From assembly GCF_026210795.1 (NCBI RefSeq), contig NC_089454.1:1364001-1428000 (forward strand): DNA of 64,000 nucleotides, read 5' to 3'. The notes under the pieces were generated by a model. The model was not told the DNA's origin and made no database searches. It worked only from the letters and a program-made list of their open reading frames with translations. A program made the translations under genes and the position numbers. This stretch comes from Rhizophagus irregularis (Eukaryota > Glomeromycota > Glomeromycetes > Glomerales > Glomeraceae). This document shows positions 5,267 through 54,255 of the stretch, piece by piece; the first letter of the stretch is position 1; every line of letters starts with the position of its first letter.

Positions 5267-7367
5267 ATTACGATAACCCCTGGTGACTCGATTTGTATCC
5301 GCCTTCGATGACTACGAAAATCAAAATTATTCTTACGATAATGGATGGGACGATGCCCAACCCGCCCGACACGAATTCTGGTTTCAATCTTCCTCCCCAT
5401 ACTTCCTCTTCTTCATGGACGTTTCTCCTGACGCTTCCTTCTCAGCTTTGGATCCTAGCTCCATCCTATCAAAACGACATGTCCCCTTACCTGTTTCCCG
5501 ACCTACTAATATCACCCCCGACGCTAACACTTCCCGTTTGCAATCAGAAATTTTTAATGTTACTACTACACAAAAGAATCTTTCTGCCCAACTTGGTTCG
5601 ATTATGGAAAAATTGGACTCCTTCTCTCCTTCAAAACCCTCCCCTTCTAATGATTGAACACCAACTTGTATCGGGTGTTTCACAGGGATTTCACCCCCCT
5701 GATAGTGCGATACCTAATTTTAATAGTCCTAATAATCCCCCTTCTCCTCCTTTTTCTTCCCCTCTTATTAACTTTGGACAAGTCAATGTTAATGGATTAT
5801 GTTCCCCTGTACGACAACTGCATTTGTTAAATTATTTCCTTCATTCTTCTTTTGGCGTTTTATCTTTAAATGATACTCGTCTCACTTCTTCCCGTGCTAA
5901 ATTTCTTTATCAAAATGAACATTCCCAATATAATTTTAAATCTTATTGGGCTCCTTCCCCCTCTAATTCGCGACCACATGATGGTGTTGGTCTTTTACTT
6001 CGCCATCCTTTACACAAACATGTTCAGAAGATTGATCCCTAGAAAGGTCGTCTTTTAAAATTAGATCTTTTTTTTCATCAGACAAAAATTTCTATTATCT
6101 CTGTTTATATTCCTCCTTATCATTCTATTCATTATAAAGAACGTGATGCTATTCTTGTTCAACTTAATTTATGGCTTGATAAAGCCCGTTCCAATAACTA
6201 TCACGTAGTTATCCTTGGTGATTTTAATGCAGATGAAATTTCACATTCACATCTTCCTCAACATCATTTGAAAATTTTACGATCACTCTCTTCTCGATAT
6301 TTTACGGATCACCAATCCCATATTTCCTCAATTTCAGGTTCTAGTCCTACCTTTTATCATCAAAATGGTTCTTCAAGACTTGATTATATCTGGTCATCCC
6401 CTGGATTTCCTGCTCCCGGTCTTTTCTCTCAAGTTGCAACTTGTCCTAAGCTGAATGATAATCAATTTACTGATCATCGTGTACTTATAACGGCCTTTGA
6501 TTTTAGCTCATGTTTCGCTACTTTATCCAAAGCTCGATTAAAGCAGAAAAGCGAACAACGCACCATCTTTTTTTATAAAAATTTGAAAGATGACACTTGG
6601 GACAAATTTTCCAATGAAGTAAACTCACGTCTTGAGTTATACTTGACCACACACCACCCTTCAGTATCTTCACTTTCAGCTCTTTCATTGGACAAACTTT
6701 GGCACGCTCTTAAACGTTTTATTCTTGGTGGTGCCATTGATTCTCTACCATTCCAACATGTATCCAATACTCATCACCATAAATATCCTCCTGAACTTAC
6801 CATGCTTATTGCTGTCAACAAATTCTTGGATAGATTATTGTTTAAATTGACCACATCTAGGCCTGGTCGTCCTGCTCAAATTTTACAAATGATTAATTCT
6901 TTACCAACCCAATTAATCCTCCTTAAGTCTCTTTTAACAGATTATACTATACCTTCTTATAGTACAACACCGCTTCCTACTTTTGTCAAATTTTTACGTT
7001 CACAAAAAGCTTTGGTCTCAGCTTATCTTTCCACACAATTTCATCAGCATCGTGTAGATTCCATTGAATATTATACTGCTCTTAAAGATGAACATTTCTC
7101 TACATCCCCGGGCTCTTTTATTTCCTCAGCCCTATCGGTGGAACATCGTTCTATCGTCCTTGATAGAGTTTTGGTTGTTATTGACTCCAAACTCGCATTA
7201 CTTACTGATCCTTCAGATATCAAACAAGCTGCTATTAAACACTTCCAATCGGTTGTCACTCCTCCTTTGGTCCAGTATTCTTCTACGGATTCATTTCCTC
7301 CACGATGGCAACGAGCTTATACTCCTCTTCCAGATATTGATTCGTCCTTATATAACTTGGTTATGTC

Positions 7368-7611
7368 TAAGGTTGCTTGCCGAAACCTAAGGGTTTAGGC
7401 AAGATGGCGTTTCGCCGAAAAGCAAAATTCTGCTGAAACTATATTAAAGTTATATTAAAAAACTGGCGAAACTTTGGAGAATGGCGAAACTGCTGAAACT
7501 TATTATAAATGCCGAAACTGCCGAAACTCTGCCGAAACTATAATAAATCTATAGTAAAATTTTGACGAAACTAATCGTAGGATTTTGAAGAGGTTTAGAC
7601 AAGCAACTTTA
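7368..7611. mobile_element. 244-bp hAT-type MITE in LINE ORF2
   Basis: The ends are TAAGGTTGCTTG and CAAGCAACTTTA, with an 8-bp duplication GTTATGTC at 7360-7367 and 7612-7619. It lies between the codons for LVMS and PILADEW of the LINE RT region. The interior is built of short gccgaaact and ctgaaact motifs. It has the same length as the copy at 21182-21425, with about nine base differences. Confidence 0.9.
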
Positions 7612-9937
7612 GTTATGTCTCCTATTCTGGCCGATGAATGGAAAAACACTCTCAATTCTATGCCTAATAATAAAGCCTCTGGTCCTTCCAAGATCTCTTA
7701 TGAGATGCTCAAACATTTAACTGGAGAAACTTTCAATTTGTCCCTTGTACTAGCCAATGCTTGTCTCATTCATGGAGATATTCCTGCCGATTGGCGTGAA
7801 GCGCTTGTTTATCCCATTCCAAAGCCTCATGAATTTGACGCCCAATTGAAGAATACGCGACCTATTACTCTATTGGAAACAGTACGAAAATGTGTGGTTA
7901 AGGTCGTTACAACTCGACTATCAAAAATCCTAGCCGACAATCAAGTGCTCCAAGGTGGTAATTTTGCCGGATTACCAGGTGGCTCCACCGACATTCCTAT
8001 TAAGATGCTTGATGCTATTATTCATCAACGACGCTTTGATAAAAGCGATGACCAAGAACTATGGGTTGTTTCTCAGGACATTTCTAAGGCCTTTGACTCA
8101 ATTGATTTGAACATGCTTAGACTGGCTTTAATTCGCCCGCATATTCCGTCTTTATTGATCAAATTTATCATTAACCTTTTTAACTTTTACAAGGCGTAAT
8201 AATAAAATTATTACACATCATGGTGATACTTCTGGATATAGAGTTAGAATTGGTATTGACCAAGGTGAAATCATCTCTCCATTATTATGGGTTATATACT
8301 TGGATCCATTACTTACCACACTTAATCGAGAAGCTTGTGATCCCTTTATTTTGAAATCTTCTGCATTATTGGATTATTCTCCAATTGAATATGAACAACA
8401 TAATCTTCCTGTTTCACATATTACATTTATGGATGACTCTACTTTGATTGCTTCATCTAAACAAGGAATTGAAGATCGCCTTTCCATCACTGCTGAATTT
8501 TACACTTTAAATAATACTCAAGCAAATTCAGCAAAATATATCCTTCTTTCTTCTGAACTATTTTCTCAAACTATTGTATTTGATCTATTCCCATCTTCTT
8601 TAAATACGATTCATACCCTTACTTTAAAGGCGTTAGCCTTATCTACATCTTTTCGGTTTTTAGGTGTTTGGTTTAACCTTTCGGCTTTTTCTCGTTTCGT
8701 TCATAACCAAACTGTTTCCATGGTCAAAGACATGGCCGCTCTACTCAGTCCTAAAAAACTTTTAGCACAACATATAGCTTATCTTTATAATGTTGTCCTA
8801 CTTCCAAGGCTAGAATTTCGCCTACAAACCATATTATTTGCAGAATCCACCATTAATCGCATGGTTTCTCCAATGCTTTCTCTTATTCGTCAGAAGGCTG
8901 GTTTGGCCTCAGTCACTCCTCTTTCCACACTCTTCACACTGTTGCCTTTCTCTATTCAACAAGCGTTTGGTCGATTTCTATCATCTCATGTGGCTTCATG
9001 GCAGAAAATTTTCTCTCACCCTTCATATAAGCTCTTTGCTAATTATATGATTACTTATCTCCAAGGTTTTTTGGACTGTGATGCCTGCCCTTCTACTATT
9101 GACCTGGAACCATGGTCCCACACCCTTTCTTTGCGAACACATTCTTTATTTAATTCTTTATTGTTCTCTTCTCGTTTAAATATCACGTGGTCTTTACTGT
9201 TCCGACCTCCAAGGAAAGATTTACGTCCGGCGATTCCACTCTGGTCTATTTTACCAAAAGATTTATTTACTTCCATGAAAAATGTTCGAAAAAATTTCTG
9301 CACTCATTTTCTTGCTCAATTGATTACACCGTGTGGCTCTCGACTTCTCTCATGAAAAGATTTACGCTTTCTTAAACGAGTATCGAACAAAGGATCTGCG
9401 CCTGCTTGGTTTAATTATTTGTTCAATCTTATTGTTATTCCTAATTCACCTTCTTTTTTTATTTTACAACAATTTAGAATTCCTAGTTCTCATACCGTAG
9501 CTTCTATTTCTTTTATAGATATTAGTCGAAATTATTGGTTTAACCCTCAATGGGCTATTTCTTTTAATCGCAATACTAACTCTTTCCTCGTTGGCCGTGT
9601 GATTACTACCTATCCTGCTCCACGTAATGAAGCTCTTATTTCACATTGGATTGCGTCATCGGTTGATGATTTACTTTCTGAATTTACTGCATGCCAAGGT
9701 TGTGCCTCTGCTATTCCGCGATCCTCTACCTCTAAGACTTTGATTAAACGATGTCCCTCTGAAGGATGTTTCTCTTATGTTCCGTTATCAAGTTTGATCC
9801 GTTATCCTACGAAACCTCGTACTTATATACATGCGGATACTTGTTCGGTTTCACTTTCTGCCTCGTTAGGCTATGCCAAATCTCTTTTACTATTTCATCT
9901 TTTTGCTCCGGTCCGCTTACCTCCTACGAATGAACTA

Positions 9938-24091: not shown

Positions 24092-26890
24092 TAGGGATTG
24101 GAATCGATTATCATTATTAGAATCAATTTTAAAATCAATTAATCGCGATTAATTGTTTCGCAAAATTTTGATTCTATAATTTGATTTTTGATTTTTGATA
24201 ATTGGATTTATACTTCAAAAACAATACTGTTTTATGGTGCAGCATTTTGTTAAACGTTTTAATAAACTTTTTATTTTCTATAATTTGTAATTATAGAATT
24301 TTTTTATACTTAAAATAATGCATTTTTTATATTTTAAATTTTAATGAATTTATTCAAATAACTAATGTCAATTTAAAATAATAAATTTTTTTATTTTTTA
24401 AATTTTAACAAATTTATTCAAATAACTAATGTATAATAATATCACTATCTGCTAGAAAATTTGATACTTAGACATCTTCTACTCCATATATATCAATATA
24501 TTCTCTATTTCTTTTTAAAAACATGAGCTGGTTAATAACAGATGAACTCAAACGGGTTCTTAGAGAAGTAATTAAGTTTTTAGCATCAGAAAAAAGTCTT
24601 TCTGATGGCATTGAAGTAGCAGGTATAGAGAGATACTTCATTGCTAGTTTGTGTAATACTGGATATTGATTTTTGTTTGTTGACCACCATAAATAAGGAT
24701 CATATTCTTCAAGAACAGGCAATTCTACTAAATCAAAATAATGTTGGAATTCATCCTTTATTGGTGCAGCTTTAGCATTCTTTTTTTTCCAAAAACTACT
24801 CATTTCTGTCATTAAATCATTTGTATCCTTATCAGCAGATGTTATAGAAATATCAATTTGTTCATTTTGTTTAAAGATCATAAACTCCTCTCTTAACTGG
24901 CTAAAAATATCATCACATTCTTCTTGAGAATTAATAAAATCTAAGCTTTTGAAGCGAGGGTCAAAAAAAGATCCTTTCATGCATAATTCTTGGAAAATAT
25001 TCCATCTTGATGTTAAATCTTCTAATATTGCATTTTTGCAATATTTTGCATCACTAGTTTTCAATGAAGTAAAATCAATTTCAAGTCTTTCTCATAAATT
25101 ACATATGCATGGATATGTAAAACCAATGGTTGGATATTTTACATCACTTAAGAGACATGTTGCAGCTTCAAAAGGATTTAAAAGCTCTACTATTTCTTTG
25201 ATTACTTTCCATTCATGAATTGTTGGATACAGTTCTTCTAACTTTTCACCTTCTTTATGAATATTTAAACTTACATTACTTATTAGGGAAGCCTTTAACA
25301 TTGCAATTGCTGGTTTTAAAATAATGAGTTTTTGAAAAGCATACAGAGTTGAATTCCATCGTATATTGTTTACTTTTATAACATCAAGATAAATAAGATT
25401 TTCATCTTCTTTTTCCAACTCATTATTATCCTATAAAACTTCTTGCTGTCGATGTAAATACATTTGTGCTTCCTTTAACTGTTATTTTTTCTTATCTTCT
25501 GCCAAAAAAGTAATGAGATGCTTACATTTATCAACTAATTGTCTTATCTTATCTAACCCCTTTTCAATGCTCAGTTGGAATGTATGGGCAGCACAAGGAA
25601 TTCTTTCACCAATACCTATTTCATTACATGCTTTTTTTATATTTGAACCATTATCAGTTACTAGTGCAATTATCTTTGATTCAATCTCCCATTCATAAAA
25701 CAAATCAATCAAATGTTCCTGAATTTCAGTTGCACCATATGGATATGGTAACTCTTTTATACTGAGAAGTACTTCATTTGGCTCAAAATCAGATGTTATC
25801 CAATGGGCTGTAACACCTAGATAAGGCAAATGTGCTGGTGAACTCCAGGCATCTAATGTCAAGGAAATATGTTTCACTTGTACCAGTTGATTTTTAAGTG
25901 TAACTTTTCCTATTTCAAATGTTTTTGAAATCCTATTTTTAATGGTTTTAGTGCAAGGAACCTTATAATGCTTATCAAATCCATTTATCATTTTAATAAA
26001 ATCTGGATCTTCTACAACATTTAAGGGTTGTACTGTTCCAATAACAAATCCTATGACATTTTGAGTTAGAGATTCTTGTTTAGAATTTTTATATGACTTA
26101 ATAGAAGATTCAGAAGGATTTTTTAATTCTTCTTCATCATGTTTCATAGCAATCTCTTTGGTAATACCATGTGCACCTGACAAATGTGTTGCTAATAAGC
26201 TTGGAGAACCACACCATGTGAGCATTTTTTCACAACCACTAATTTGACATACAGCCTTGGTATTATCTTTATTGAGCTCAAAAAACTGCCATATCCAGCT
26301 TGTTTTTGATCTTCTAATTTTAGTTGATGCTTTTTGCTGTTTTGATTGTTTGCTAATTTCTAAATATTCTGCTTCAATATCATCAATAGTTATATTAGAA
26401 ATATCAGCAGATAGTGTAGTAATATCTTGCAGTAACACATGACTGTCTTTAGCTTCATAATCAGGATCATTTTCACTTTCTTCTATTGTTAAATGACTTG
26501 TTTCAACCTCATAGACTGAGTCATCTTCACGTTCTTTTATTACATCCTGTGCTAAATTTTCTTTCTCTACTACTGCTTCTTTGGCCATCTGTTCCATTTA
26601 TTTATGTTTACTTCGTGTAGTAGTTGCCATTTTTTAAAAAAAAGTTTTATGGTGTGGGAATTTTTACGGTATTGACAGAAATAAAAGATAAATGATCGGC
26701 ATTATAACCTGATTAAAACTTATTTTTTGGTGTAACAGAAAAATTTTATAATGATCATTTAATAAACTACTTTTATTATCAATACTGCGTTGCAATAAAT
26801 AATTTCGATTTTTGTTCGATAATTGATTTAAAATCGATTCTTATCAATTTTCAATAAATTCGATTATTATAAAATCGATTCCAATCTCTA
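24092..26890 (-). mobile_element. 2.8-kb hAT transposon with transposase gene
   Basis: Termini TAGGGATTGGAATCGATT at 24092 and AATCGATTCCAATCTCTA at 26890, with a perfect 8-bp duplication CATCACCT at 24084-24091 and 26891-26898. It holds one transposase gene on the minus strand. Confidence 0.9.
24468..26597 (-). pseudogene. hAT transposase (BED zinc finger, hATC dimerisation domain), three in-frame stops
   Basis: A single frame of about 700 codons runs from ATG at 26597. Near 26160-26280 is a BED finger (WIWQFFELNKD, C-x4-C, H-x4-H pattern). The catalytic core follows with ISLTLDAWSSP, VTDNGSNIKKAC and CAAHTFQLSI, as in hAT transposases. The C-terminus is the hATC region (YLSIPATSMPSERLFSDAKN, near 24560-24640). 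The frame is broken only by TAA at 25482-25484, TAG at 25431-25433 and TGA at 25089-25091, with no frameshift. It cuts and pastes its own element in the nucleus when intact; this copy should be inactive. Confidence 0.9.
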
Positions 26891-44927: not shown

Positions 44928-46039
44928 TTTAACGACAGTTAAGTCTTCTCACTTAGTCTTTCGATCAGTGCTGTCTTAAGATTTTCGACAAGGTATTTAT
45001 ATTACGAAATTTTCATACCTAGAATCTTACGTGTTCTGTGTATCGTAAGACCGCTGCGTCGTTGATAGAAAGCTTTTTATTAGTCATAGCTGCGCATAAA
45101 AGGAGAAAAAACTCTCACGTGCAGTATGAATATGCACAATCGATATTTACGCGAGTACTTTTCTCTCTCATTCTTAGTACAAGGAAAAAATTGCATAATC
45201 ATGAATGAAAGGTAAATTAGGACAATAAACCTATTCCACACCGTCATATACCTCGTCAAGGTGTATTTTGATTTATTTTACTTATTTTTAAGTATGTACC
45301 AAACCAGTGAAAATATCAGTGTTTGGATAGTAGGTGGGGAGCAATTAAAAAAAATATTCAGGTACGATCAAATTATATTTCGTGAAAATAATAACAAACA
45401 TTTCAATTCAAGGATGTGTATTATTTGATTGGAAAAAAAAATGCAAAATTTTTTTTTTGGCAGAATTTTGAGAATTTTGACAATTAACTTTCTGCTTATA
45501 TTCAAGAAACCTATTGCCACGTGAAGTGCCATCTAAAATGTTTTATAATGCATCTTTTGCTCCGAATTATAAATTTTTATCAAATATCAAATATATTTTA
45601 ACATTGCACAATTTACAATGTAATAAAAATTTAAAATATAATCATTTGCTAAATGAATAAATAGTGTTTCCTGAATCCTGATGTTTATAAATTAAAGAAC
45701 TAAATACATACAATAAGAAATACTATTGTAGTTTATCAGAATAAAATAAAAGAGCTTAAATCAGAATTTTTGTATTGTAAAAGCATATTAAAAAGATTTA
45801 GCGAGAAAGATTCTTGAAGAGAAGGCTTACCTATCAAATCATAAAAGCTTAGAATAAGATTTAAAACAAAAATCAGAATTTAAAGATATACTAAAATTTC
45901 ATGTTGCGGGGACCAATACTCGGCGCAGTATACGCAGTCAAAAAAATTACGGGTAAATCGGGCAGTGGCGAGATTAGTAACTCCGGAGCTAATTCGATAT
46001 AAAAGATTCCATTATTTCGTTTGGTCTCCTCTAAGCAAA
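44928..46039. promoter_or_regulatory. Shared upstream region between RAD23 and the PARP-RING-DTC gene
   Basis: 1.1 kb between two divergent start codons with no coding sequence. It includes CACGTG-type words (near 45116 and 45519) and pyrimidine/AT stretches. No individual promoter element can be assigned with confidence. Confidence 0.45.
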
Positions 46040-48141
46040 ATGAGTAGCGGCAAAAGAGAATATCAGCTCGAAGACGGAAAGTTGATTTTAGATCGAGTAC
46101 GCAACTATTTCTGCGTTCCGTATACGAAACCACCGACAAATATCGAACTTTCTAAGGATGATCAATTATATATAGACATTGCCGCTTATTTTGGAGATCA
46201 ACTAAAAGAAGTTTTTTGTAAAATTACTTCGATTTCAATCTTACAAAATCGAACTGTTTGGGAAAGGTAGATATGATGTAATAGCACACTGGAGTTTTTG
46301 GAATTGTCTTAAACCAGGCTTTTTTCTCCTTTCAAATAGGTATCAACAATATAAGGATTTACAACAAGCCATAGAAAAAGAGAGAGAAGCGCGGTTTCAA
46401 ACTAATTTTGAAACGGCGTTTAAGGATACAGTCTTATTTCATGGAACACAACCAGATAACGTTATATCTATATTGGAACACGGTTTAGTACGTGTAATTA
46501 TTTTTCCTTTGATAATTTAATAACAATTTATTAATTTTGTTAATTATCTTTGATTGGAAAAAAAGGAGCTAATTATTTTTTCTTGAACTAAAGGATGGTC
46601 GTTTCTCAAAGGAATATGGTAATTGCGGACCCGCAATATATTTATCTCCGAGTTTTGTAAAATGTGATATTTTTGCTAGTCGCTGTAACCCTACAAAAAG
46701 AGCATTAGTCGTTTGCGTAACTGCCCTTGGAAAAATATTCGATAACACGATAAGTAAGACTGTAAACCCAAATACCAAGTATCCCCCAAAGGGATTTCAC
46801 AGTGTCAAACATTATGTTTCCACGGCCGACGAATATGTAGTGTACGATAACGACCAAGTACTTCCGATTTTGGCAATATATTATGATAAATCTGAGGAAA
46901 ATAACCTTCACCCTTTCATACCAGCAATTAGTTCAATAGCGGGATTTAATTCATTTGCTGCATCAAATCAAAGTAATTTTAAAATGCCTATAAACACGTC
47001 ACCCCACTTTAATTCTGCCTTTGGTTTAAACTCTAATGGATTTAATTATACATCACATCACCCATCGACTACTTTCAATCTTCCTCCGCTTCCAACGAAT
47101 TTTAATCGAAATGTACCTCAATTACCATCTATTACACTGTTTACTCCATTTGCTAAGTCCTCTATTTCAAAATCTACGAATGTACAAACAGAGAGTCAAT
47201 GGACTATTCGTAAAGCACAAGGAATGGTACAACAATGGGAACGACAGGTTAATTTATCAGGAAAAATCTCCAACTTTTATGGTACAGCGATGGCTGATAA
47301 ACAATTCTGGCCAGTAAAACCAAATGGAATTTATCCACACCTAAAAACATATTTAGATCTTGTTATGTCAAAACAACCAAATATGTCTTCTTCGGAATTA
47401 GACCAGGGTTTCATTAATATGTTAAAAAATCTTAATAGCTATGAAGGAATTGTATATGCTAGAAGGAAAAATGTTGAAATGTCAAGATCTATTAATTTGA
47501 ATCAGGTCATTTCTTTGGCTACACAAGATCGACTTCAAGAAGCAGCTGCATCACAAGAAAGCTGTACTATATGTGCAGAATCGGTAGTAACTTTTAATCA
47601 ACCTTTAGATGTTGTAAAAATGAACAATTGCCCCCACATTTTTCACAGATCTTGTATAGAGACATGGTTGTATATGCCTTCATCACAAATGATATGTCCA
47701 AATTGTAAGACTCCTTGCCATGATCCTATGGCACCACCTCCAATAGGCCCGATGCCGGATGGAGAGATGGCATATTCCTTTAGTGAAAAATTTGGTGCTT
47801 GGTTCATATGTTATTCAATTCCCCATGGGGCACAACTTCCTTGTCATGCAGCACCAGGAAAACCTTTTAAAGGTGCTACTCGAACCGCTGTTTGTCCGAT
47901 TTATTTAAAATGGGGTCCACTTTTATTCATACGTATGGTCGCAGCTTTTTATTATCATCACACCTTTACAGTAGGCACTTCTCTTACAACTAACATGTCT
48001 GATGTTATAACTTGGAATGGTATACATCATAAGACATCAATCGATGGTGGTTTTGGTTTCCCTGATTCAACTTACGAAGACCGAGTTTCTTTGGAGTTGG
48101 ATGGGAAAGGAATTCTTTTGTTTTTAAGAGATCTGATATAG
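46040..48141 (+). CDS. PARP - RING - Deltex C-terminal (DTC) fusion protein
   Basis: Three exons (46040-46266, 46340-46487 and 46594-48141) encode 640 residues from MSSGKREYQ. The PARP catalytic domain (about 60-220) has LFHGT with His110, GPAIYLSPS with Tyr141 and DEYVVYDNDQVLP with Glu205, so the H-Y-E triad is complete. Residues 225-345 are Asn/Phe/Pro-rich and low-complexity, followed by a helical linker. A RING-H2 finger spans 449-496 (CTIC, CPHIFHRSC, CPNC). The DTC domain (about 505-640) has PDGEMAYSF, APGKPF, FTVGTSLTTNMSD and WNGIHHKTS (W599, H603, H604). In known families PARPs ADP-ribosylate, while RING-DTC E3 ligases bind ADP-ribose and join ubiquitin to ADP-ribosylated targets or to ADP-ribose itself. 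One chain could thus write and ubiquitinate the mark. The Glu of the animal WNEIHHKTE motif is Gly here. Domain calls are from motifs; the joint function is inferred. Confidence 0.9.
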
Positions 48142-52075: not shown

Positions 52076-54255
52076 TCAAACTGCTCTAGGTCTTTTTGCC
52101 ACTTGTCCTGTATACTCATAATTGCTAGCATTTATTTATAAAAAAAAAGAAAAAAAAGGATAAATGGATAAATAAAATAAAATAAACCAATCATAAATTG
52201 ATAATTAAAAATTGCAAATAAACGTAGCTAACTTACCCCGGTAGACTGCATATATTGTTGGATCTTTTGATTCCAGTTATTTGTCCGGTAGTTCCCAAAG
52301 TATTCGTACCTTGATTATTTTCGTTCCTAGCTCCATTGTAATTGAAATTATCCTTACCGTTATTCTTGGAACAATTCGGACTATCAACTTTTTGAGATAT
52401 TCTCGATGGTTCAATATTAACTGTATTGGTCCACGTAGAATTAGAATTGGACGAAAAACTGTAAGTATTATCTTTTAAAAAGGGTCGAATATGCTTATTT
52501 TTGTCATTAATAGGATTAAACTGTGAAGCCTCATTAGTCTTATCCAACGTAGGTTTAGATAACAACTTATTGTGTTCCATCTGCAAGGACTGATTCAATG
52601 ATGAGACTTGAAGACTTTGTGTAATACGTGTTGGATAAGGTGAATGACTCGATTGTTCAATCGAAGCATTATTAAAACTTAATTCGCAATAAAATTAATA
52701 ATTTTGTGAAATTATCTAGAAATTTATAAGTTAAATGAATATAAAAAACAAAATCAATGTTACCAATCCAGCCTATCTTCATTTGGTGAGTGCTCGACAA
52801 ATGAATCAATTTGCGGTGATAGATTGTCGAATTCAGAAAACAAATGCGCATATTGAGAGTCCAAGGCTAAAAAATAATTACACTATATAAATAAATTATT
52901 AATTTTGCTTATTCTCAAAGTAAACATAACTTACCATCATATTGCGCATTAATCGCAGACGGGCTTAAATTGTTTCCTATACCTATTGAAACCAATTTTA
53001 TTAGTATTTTCTAAAGAATTCTTTTCAAAAAAAAAAAAAAAAAAATTTTTAAACAAACCTTCCGTATTGGTTATCTTAGTTTGTATATTTGGCGTTAATA
53101 ATAAATTATCAGAAACCTTATTACTTGGATCATTAATTGTTAATCGTTCTGAATTTAAGGATGTTTCCGGATTTTCTATACTATTTATGAAATTTTGGGC
53201 TAGTTTTTGAGTAATCTCTTGATTTAAATATATATTTCCATCTGATTTTGTGTTATTTATTGTTATAGGAGGTTCGGGAATAGGTATTACTTTTGGAGCG
53301 AATTCTGCTTTCCTATATAACTCGTCAACAGCAAATTTTGACTTGAAAACAATTTGAATATAATTTTTAATTAATCTGATTAAATTCTCTTGAAGTTTAT
53401 TTACACCTACCGAAGGTACTTTCACTTTAGCTATTTCCTGTCCATATTTTTTATCATACATGCAATTACCCATCAAATTTCCGAACATTCTTAAAGCACG
53501 CTTTAGTGCATCCGTCGCCGCTTCTTTTTTTGCCTTTCAGGTCAAACATTTCTCATTATATGATTTGATCAAAATATCCAAAAAAAAAAATTTTTTTTTA
53601 ATCTACCTTTTCGAAAGCGCCTGCCTTGCTTTTCAAATTATCGCAAGAACCATATCCAATATCCTATGTATAAGTATATTCACTAGTATCCCAATTATCT
53701 AATAACGCGTTCCACAAACTATAATTTTTACCTCATGAAATGTCCCATCCTTGAGGGTTACTCTGCAGGTTACCGCTACGCCAATAGAAAACTTACCGGT
53801 ATCGTGATTGCAATCAACCTGAGATTGTGAAATTAGAAACTGGGAAATTGATCAAAGATTTTGAAAAATAAAACTAACGTACAAAATCGACCGTTATATC
53901 AACTATACTTGACGACCATCCATTAAAACCAAAGACATCATTAGCTAAATTCATTGCTTTCCATCCTTCTAAATAAATTACTTTGCCACCTTAAACGTAA
54001 TTTGTATTACTTTGTCACAAAAATAAACTCTCTCAAATTCACTATGCAACAAATATGAAGAATTAAATGTCGTTTTTCACCTCCGGGACCTGGACGACTG
54101 CTAACATACTCTGGTCCTAATTGTTTAGAGAGGTTAGCTTGAATGGTTTTGTATTCCTCTAAGGTGTAAGAGGTAGCTTCCCAAACTGGAGACGCGTTGC
54201 CTGTTTCTTTATCATTCTTAAATGGTCTTTGTTGGTGTCCCCCGTTAAGTCGCAT
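52076..54255 (-). CDS. RAD52: Rad52, recombination mediator and strand-annealing protein
   Basis: Start at 54255 ([12 protein letters not shown]). The conserved N-terminal annealing domain is spread over several exons: [14 protein letters not shown], then [84 protein letters not shown] and [25 protein letters not shown] follows, as in fungal Rad52. The C-terminal half is Asn/Ser/Thr-rich and poorly conserved, ending QVAKRPRAV with stop at 52076-52078 after a last small exon. Rad52 forms rings that anneal single strands and load Rad51 in homologous recombination. A run of A/T at 53020-53050 lies in an intron. Confidence 0.95.

Follow-up and report, generated by a model that had tools for sequence, protein, structure and literature searches.

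Whether a single fungal protein can both write ADP-ribose and ubiquitinate it is the question raised by a gene at positions 46040-48141 of a 64,000-nucleotide stretch of Rhizophagus irregularis DNA, which as a whole is called the window here. A reading made from the sequence only had proposed that this segment encodes one 640-residue protein with a PARP catalytic domain, a RING-H2 finger and a Deltex C-terminal (DTC) domain, and Pfam finds all three above their cut-offs. What the analysis shows is a single open frame, three domains recognised by profile, a PARP triad and a DTC His/Glu pair that align with those of known family members, and a predicted Deltex fold of the RING-DTC part. The explanation favoured here, with a probability of roughly 0.6, is that the gene encodes a native fungal enzyme coupling ADP-ribosylation and ubiquitination in cis, for which we infer the catalytic steps, the substrate and the biological role.

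The protein is assembled from three spliced exons on the + strand (46040-46266, 46340-46487 and 46594-48141). Exon 1 (46040..46266), which opens with the first ATG of the stop-to-stop frame 45884-46270, supplies residues 1-75 plus two bases of codon 76, and with them the N-terminal region and the start of the PARP domain. It is followed by intron 1 (46267..46339; 73 bases with GT...AG ends), which contains one TGA and one TAG where the search of the organism's own genome with tblastn reads through it, by exon 2 (46340..46487), which holds the triad residue His110, and by intron 2 (46488..46593; 106 bases, again with GT...AG ends). Exon 3 (46594..48141, including the stop) is open throughout and encodes the remaining PARP segment, linker, RING and DTC. 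Since the stop-to-stop frame around exon 3 (46573-48141, 522 aa) contains PARP residues Y141 and E205 together with the linker, RING and DTC, the fusion is independent of the splicing calls, and H110 in exon 2 is the only triad residue that depends on them. That two genes have been misread as one is ruled out by this single 522-codon frame. A subtler annotation artefact is very improbable, whether the PARP were expressed apart from the RING-DTC or an unrecognised in-frame intron cut out part of the linker or a domain; a stop-free linker intron with a length that is a multiple of three is conceivable, but in this 30% G+C window the 522 codons covering PARP, linker, RING and DTC contain no stop, and G+C is lowest at the third codon position in all six coding segments, that of the linker included.

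The PARP catalytic domain (46178..46896, +; residues 47-226, interrupted by the introns) matches the PARP/ARTD family profile PF00644 with 43 bits in the full protein (E 4.6e-11, cut-off 26.7) and with 47.1 bits when residues 1-226 are scanned alone. The triad residues H110 (46440-46442), Y141 (46639-46641) and E205 (46831-46833, within EYVVY), all on the + strand, lie where the sequence-only reading had placed them, and align with the corresponding H, Y and E in each of the four further PARPs compared from the same genome (those at C31, which is PARP1-like, C18, C9 and C14; the C14 row is partial and C2 was left out). The G-x-G ahead of the triad Tyr is G-P-A in this alignment. A search of solved structures with the PARP part alone gives PARP15 (E 0.0039), PARP4 (0.011) and PARP3 (0.11), all of them weak; NCBIfam has no match over cut-off, and a weak, sub-threshold resemblance to RNA 2'-phosphotransferase appears in NCBIfam and Pfam (E 0.11 and 0.23). 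Judged by its sequence, the PARP domain is diverged, with a 43-bit match and weak structural relatives, and its H-Y-E triad is intact. In Clade 1 (PARP1-type) PARPs, according to the available portion of PMC2964712, a WGR and a PARP regulatory domain accompany the catalytic domain; neither is among the 22 families that Pfam lists for the protein at E up to 1.

Behind the PARP domain lies a linker of about 220 residues (46897..47559, +; residues 227-447), rich in Asn, Ser, Pro and Phe up to about residue 330 and beyond that a helical stretch in a low-confidence model, in which Pfam finds nothing above cut-off. The RING-H2 finger (47560..47709, +; residues 448-497) is recognised as zf-RING_2, PF13639, with 31.9 bits against a cut-off of 27.3 and has CTIC at residue 449. 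In the alignment it is without the long insertion of the DTX1 RING. Right behind its last CxxC stands Lys497, which aligns with the same Lys of DTX2, probably the K473 tested in PMC7615817. With the RING ending at residue 497 and the DTC beginning at 523, the RING immediately precedes the DTC, as it does in the DELTEX ligases.

The DTC (47785..48114, +; residues 523-632) gives the strongest of the profile matches, PF18102 at 88.8 bits (E 4.4e-25, cut-off 25), and contains the previously noted FTVGTS and IHHKT motifs at residues 583 and 602. A search of solved structures with the whole protein has DTX2 (E 4.5e-24), DTX1 and DTX3L at its head; identity of the DTC to human DTX2, DTX1 and DTX3L is 43%, 38% and 43%, respectively. 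In an alignment with these three, H603 (48025-48027, +) and E626 (48094-48096, +) correspond to H582 and E608 of DTX2, and in the row of DTX3L the residues H707, Y719 and E733 are spaced as their published numbers require. For the two DTX2 residues, a catalytic role and strict conservation across DTX proteins have been described (PMC7615817; PMC10810221, in the portions available), and every substitution of the His/Glu pair tested by Zhu and colleagues impairs Ub-NAD formation (PMC7615817). In the alignment, the AR insertion that DTX1 and DTX2 have in their DTC is missing from this one; absence of that insertion and of a long RING insertion are traits of DTX3 and DTX3L, the two human members reported to ubiquitinate single-stranded DNA (PMC11460948).

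The kinship with Deltex extends to predicted structure, for which a model of the RING-DTC part (residues 435-640, built with nine bacterial rows) has a mean pLDDT of 78.4 and a pTM of 0.66. Foldseek finds nine matches in the PDB at E up to 0.001, every one a Deltex chain, 3pg6, 6y2x and 6y3j among them, so that the model resembles solved DTX2, DTX1 and DTX3L; it matches DTX2 6y2x with E 1.6e-12, and its DTC superposes on that of DTX3L at 2.1-2.2 A over 132-133 columns (3pg6: 2.1 A over 133). The RING-DTC is thus predicted to adopt the Deltex fold. The overall rmsd to the DTX2 and DTX1 RING-DTC is 10.5-11.9 A, meaning either that RING and DTC sit differently towards each other or that the model does not predict how they are arranged; the RING blocks themselves have a pLDDT of about 56 to 70. 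Ten-residue blocks of the DTC exceed 80 apart from 605-614, which has a mean of 68 and holds F612, so the pocket is not to be judged from this model. A model of exon 3 as a whole (mean pLDDT 36.8) is too poor to show the domain arrangement.

It is at F612 (48052-48054, +) that the comparison with the human enzymes becomes less straightforward. The pocket position occupied by His594 in DTX2 and Tyr719 in DTX3L is Phe in the fungal protein, a detail missing from the sequence-only reading; as the residue varies among human members, it is not strictly defining. H594 of DTX2 is reported to play an important part in ADP-ribose interaction, and the DTX3L variant Y719A to be defective on single-stranded DNA (PMC11460948, available portion). 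In 14 bacterial DTC matches, read by eye from translations and the alignment, the position is His in nine and Tyr, Phe, Asn and Asp in one each, with one unclear; it differs among them and therefore appears naturally variable. F612 is the main caution against presuming full activity. One alternative that takes this change seriously holds that the PARP is active, that the DTC with F612 has no more than weak affinity for ADP-ribose or a different ligand altogether, and that the protein works as a conventional RING E3 tethered to a PARP, acting on lysines of ADP-ribosylated substrates. The defect of DTX3L Y719A speaks for it, as do the intact RING and the intact Lys behind its last CxxC; the DTC has nonetheless kept the catalytic His and Glu, and the bacterial DTC with Phe at this position (locus L006) has the same pair. 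On balance this alternative is unlikely, but it carries appreciable weight.

The bacterial relatives come from a profile search of 37 genomes from the family to which G001 (the Endozoicomonas cretensis record) belongs, which gave 14 DTC matches in 12 of them. The frames reach 1614 aa, one lies at L006:2226-5348 (+), and the loci include L014-L031. A DTC occurs together with a macrodomain at L006, L020, L021 (the gene of L030), L022 and L031, and together with a RING at L016 (the gene of L028) and L026 (the gene of L029); by reading, the catalytic His is lost in four of the 14 (L016, L017, L019 and L026). These DTC proteins may be derived from hosts and secreted by the animal-associated bacteria that carry them; a literature search combining Endozoicomonas with deltex returned no paper. 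No PARP-DTC fusion was found in the ten frames from the 14 matches that were first scanned with Pfam, six of which are truncated by the end of their locus (L017, L023, L024 and L027 were left out of this pass), or in four full frames, three of which extend earlier frames and one L024. Scanning genome contigs with patterns from the DTC alignment gave 169 pattern matches and two confirmed loci, both in Endozoicomonas, and two pattern scans for viral relatives (21 and 3 pattern matches) confirmed none. Because such scans are insensitive, recovering two loci against the 12 of 37 genomes of the profile search, a miss in them is weak evidence.

If the favoured explanation of coupling in cis is correct, the PARP domain, through its H-Y-E triad, would use NAD+ to place ADP-ribose on a substrate or on its own chain, and the RING would recruit E2~ubiquitin. 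From its place beyond the long linker of the same chain, the DTC would then take the ADP-ribose made by the PARP, and H603 and E626 would activate its 3'-OH for ubiquitin transfer, yielding an ADP-ribosyl-ubiquitin ester. The earlier picture of a self-contained system that writes, reads and ubiquitinates ADP-ribose holds as regards the single chain, the triad-bearing PARP and the DTC His/Glu pair; the reading and ubiquitinating steps stay putative, with Phe612 aligned at the pocket position. Supporting the cis-coupling explanation are ADP-ribose erasers in the same genome (PARG at two places, and ARH matched by three adjoining pieces) and the precedent in trans of PARP7 with DTX2, while F612, the diverged PARP, G-P-A and the 2'-phosphotransferase resemblance weaken it. 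A variant is that the PARP mainly modifies itself and that the RING-DTC ubiquitinates this ADP-ribose in cis, which would make the protein an NAD+-dependent self-destruct switch that curbs how long it lasts or how active it is. PARPs commonly modify themselves, and here about 220 linker residues separate the two predicted activities of a single chain; the variant is compatible with the favoured explanation and not exclusive of it, and as a separate account it is rather improbable. A bolder form of the cis-coupling explanation is that one fungal polypeptide is a complete writer of the ADP-ribosyl-ubiquitin mark outside animals, producing ADP-ribose, retaining it and linking ubiquitin to it as an ester. 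With the short RING and missing AR insertion of the DTX3/DTX3L type, it may also accept single-stranded nucleic acids, whether ADP-ribosylated or free, in addition to proteins. The bolder form as a whole is offered tentatively, its chances falling somewhat short of even.

The gene belongs to this genome by several indications. It sits within a contig of 3.46 Mb, and among ten other window frames scanned with Pfam (the window has 34 frames of at least 110 residues), Myb and Rad52 domains occur within a few kilobases of it. Contaminating or recently transferred DNA, a thought encouraged by the description of Deltex as holozoan-specific in PMC2770060, is scarcely credible given this setting inside a long contig next to Myb and Rad52 frames, the two short GT-AG introns, and a DTC no closer to the human DTX2, DTX1 and DTX3L domains than the identities given above. 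The frame at window 52952-53536 (-), about 5 kb downstream of the gene, holds the end of a Rad52/Rad22 domain, and the neighbourhood may be one of chance. Farther away the scanned frames hold BTB, a PHD match that is weak and below cut-off, and transposon domains, and three of the ten matched nothing. LINE-type retrotransposon frames at 6043-8196 (+) contain endonuclease (PF14529, PF03372) and a reverse transcriptase match (PF00078) that, at 26.3 bits, is just under the cut-off of 29.6. A hAT transposase at 24471-26597 (-) has its C-terminal dimerisation domain at 24471-25091, and the frame 25485-26597 in this region matched no family.

Across the 146.7-Mb genome (32 contigs) the DTC profile finds one place, the window gene. 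PF00644 finds five other PARP places (C31, C18, C9, C2 and C14) and misses the window gene, probably because introns split its PARP domain. A tblastn search of the genome with the whole protein gives four matches, three of them the exons of this gene and the fourth, on C15, covering just the RING (39% over residues 432-509, E 3.2e-4). By eye, no RING-DTC was recognisable in frames of at least 70 residues within the 4-4.5 kb around C18, C9, C2 and C14, and with none recognised there and C31 being of the PARP1 kind, the other PARPs were set aside as carriers of the fusion. Those at C18, C9 and C14 (L008, L009, L011) are related PARP-type genes with Cys-rich, zinc-binding-like stretches and the H-Y-E triad. 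An exon-by-exon search did not find a macrodomain in the genome, a kind of search in which a miss does not show absence. In the window protein itself, Pfam lists no macrodomain, KH, WWE, RRM or UBCc among its 22 families at E up to 1.

Comparison with known systems places the protein nearest to the DTX3/DTX3L type of DELTEX ligase, with which it shares a RING directly followed by the DTC, the catalytic His and Glu, and the absence of AR and long RING insertions; unlike these it adds a PARP of its own, is without WWE, RRM and KH, and has Phe at the H594/Y719 position. Members of the DTX1/2/4 subgroup have WWE domains, and the fungal protein differs from them in having none. In the 2009 survey, WWE with RING was the diagnostic domain set for Deltex (PMC2770060, available portion). 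The parallel with PARP9-DTX3L drawn in the sequence-only reading stands as a functional likeness, in that a PARP-type domain and a RING-DTC act together, and fails in domain content: PARP9 and DTX3L are two chains, with macrodomains on PARP9, whereas here there is one chain with neither macrodomain nor KH. PARP9 is moreover said to miss several essential catalytic residues (PMC10499325, in part), in contrast to the H-Y-E of the fungal PARP. PARP7 generates an ADP-ribosyl degron for DTX2 to read and ubiquitinate (PMC12402299, available portion); there too a mono-ADP-ribosyltransferase writes and a RING-DTC E3 reads and ubiquitinates, but as two proteins in trans.

That PARPs have been tied to ubiquitin machinery before is clear from fungal PARPs fused to an E2-like UBCc (PMC2964712; PMC4245714, available portions). 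These Clade 6A proteins likewise join a fungal PARP to ubiquitin conjugation, but their partner is the E2-like UBCc rather than a RING-DTC E3, and the absence of UBCc from the Pfam families at E up to 1 rules the window protein out of this group. Dictyostelium DDB0232928, which joins U-box, Macro and PARP, also has an E3-type domain and a PARP on one chain; it has a U-box in place of a RING and a macrodomain, and the available portion of PMC2964712 mentions no DTC. The architecture is accordingly a new combination of known parts. The suggestion of novelty made from the sequence is upheld to the extent that no PARP-RING-DTC protein is described among the full-text literature matches listed, a body of text that mostly leaves subscription papers outside its scope, and is tempered by the known PARP-UBCc and U-box/Macro/PARP fusions; the architecture may already be present, unremarked, in automatic annotation. 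As far as the portions available show, the fungal PARPs recorded in the 2010 survey all fell into Clade 1 or Clade 6, with basal fungi poorly represented (PMC2964712), the 2009 survey listed Deltex as holozoan-specific (PMC2770060), and a 2024 study traced DTX orthologues back to sponges at the earliest (PMC11594159).

The animal systems cited above divide the writing of ADP-ribose and its ubiquitination between different proteins. An intact PARP naturally fused to a RING-DTC is evidence from evolution for a link between the two reactions, and would offer a one-protein system for synthesis of the hybrid ADP-ribosyl-ubiquitin mark. It puts Deltex chemistry in a fungus, and if the bolder form of the proposal holds true, coupled ADP-ribose-ubiquitin chemistry would be placed outside Holozoa.
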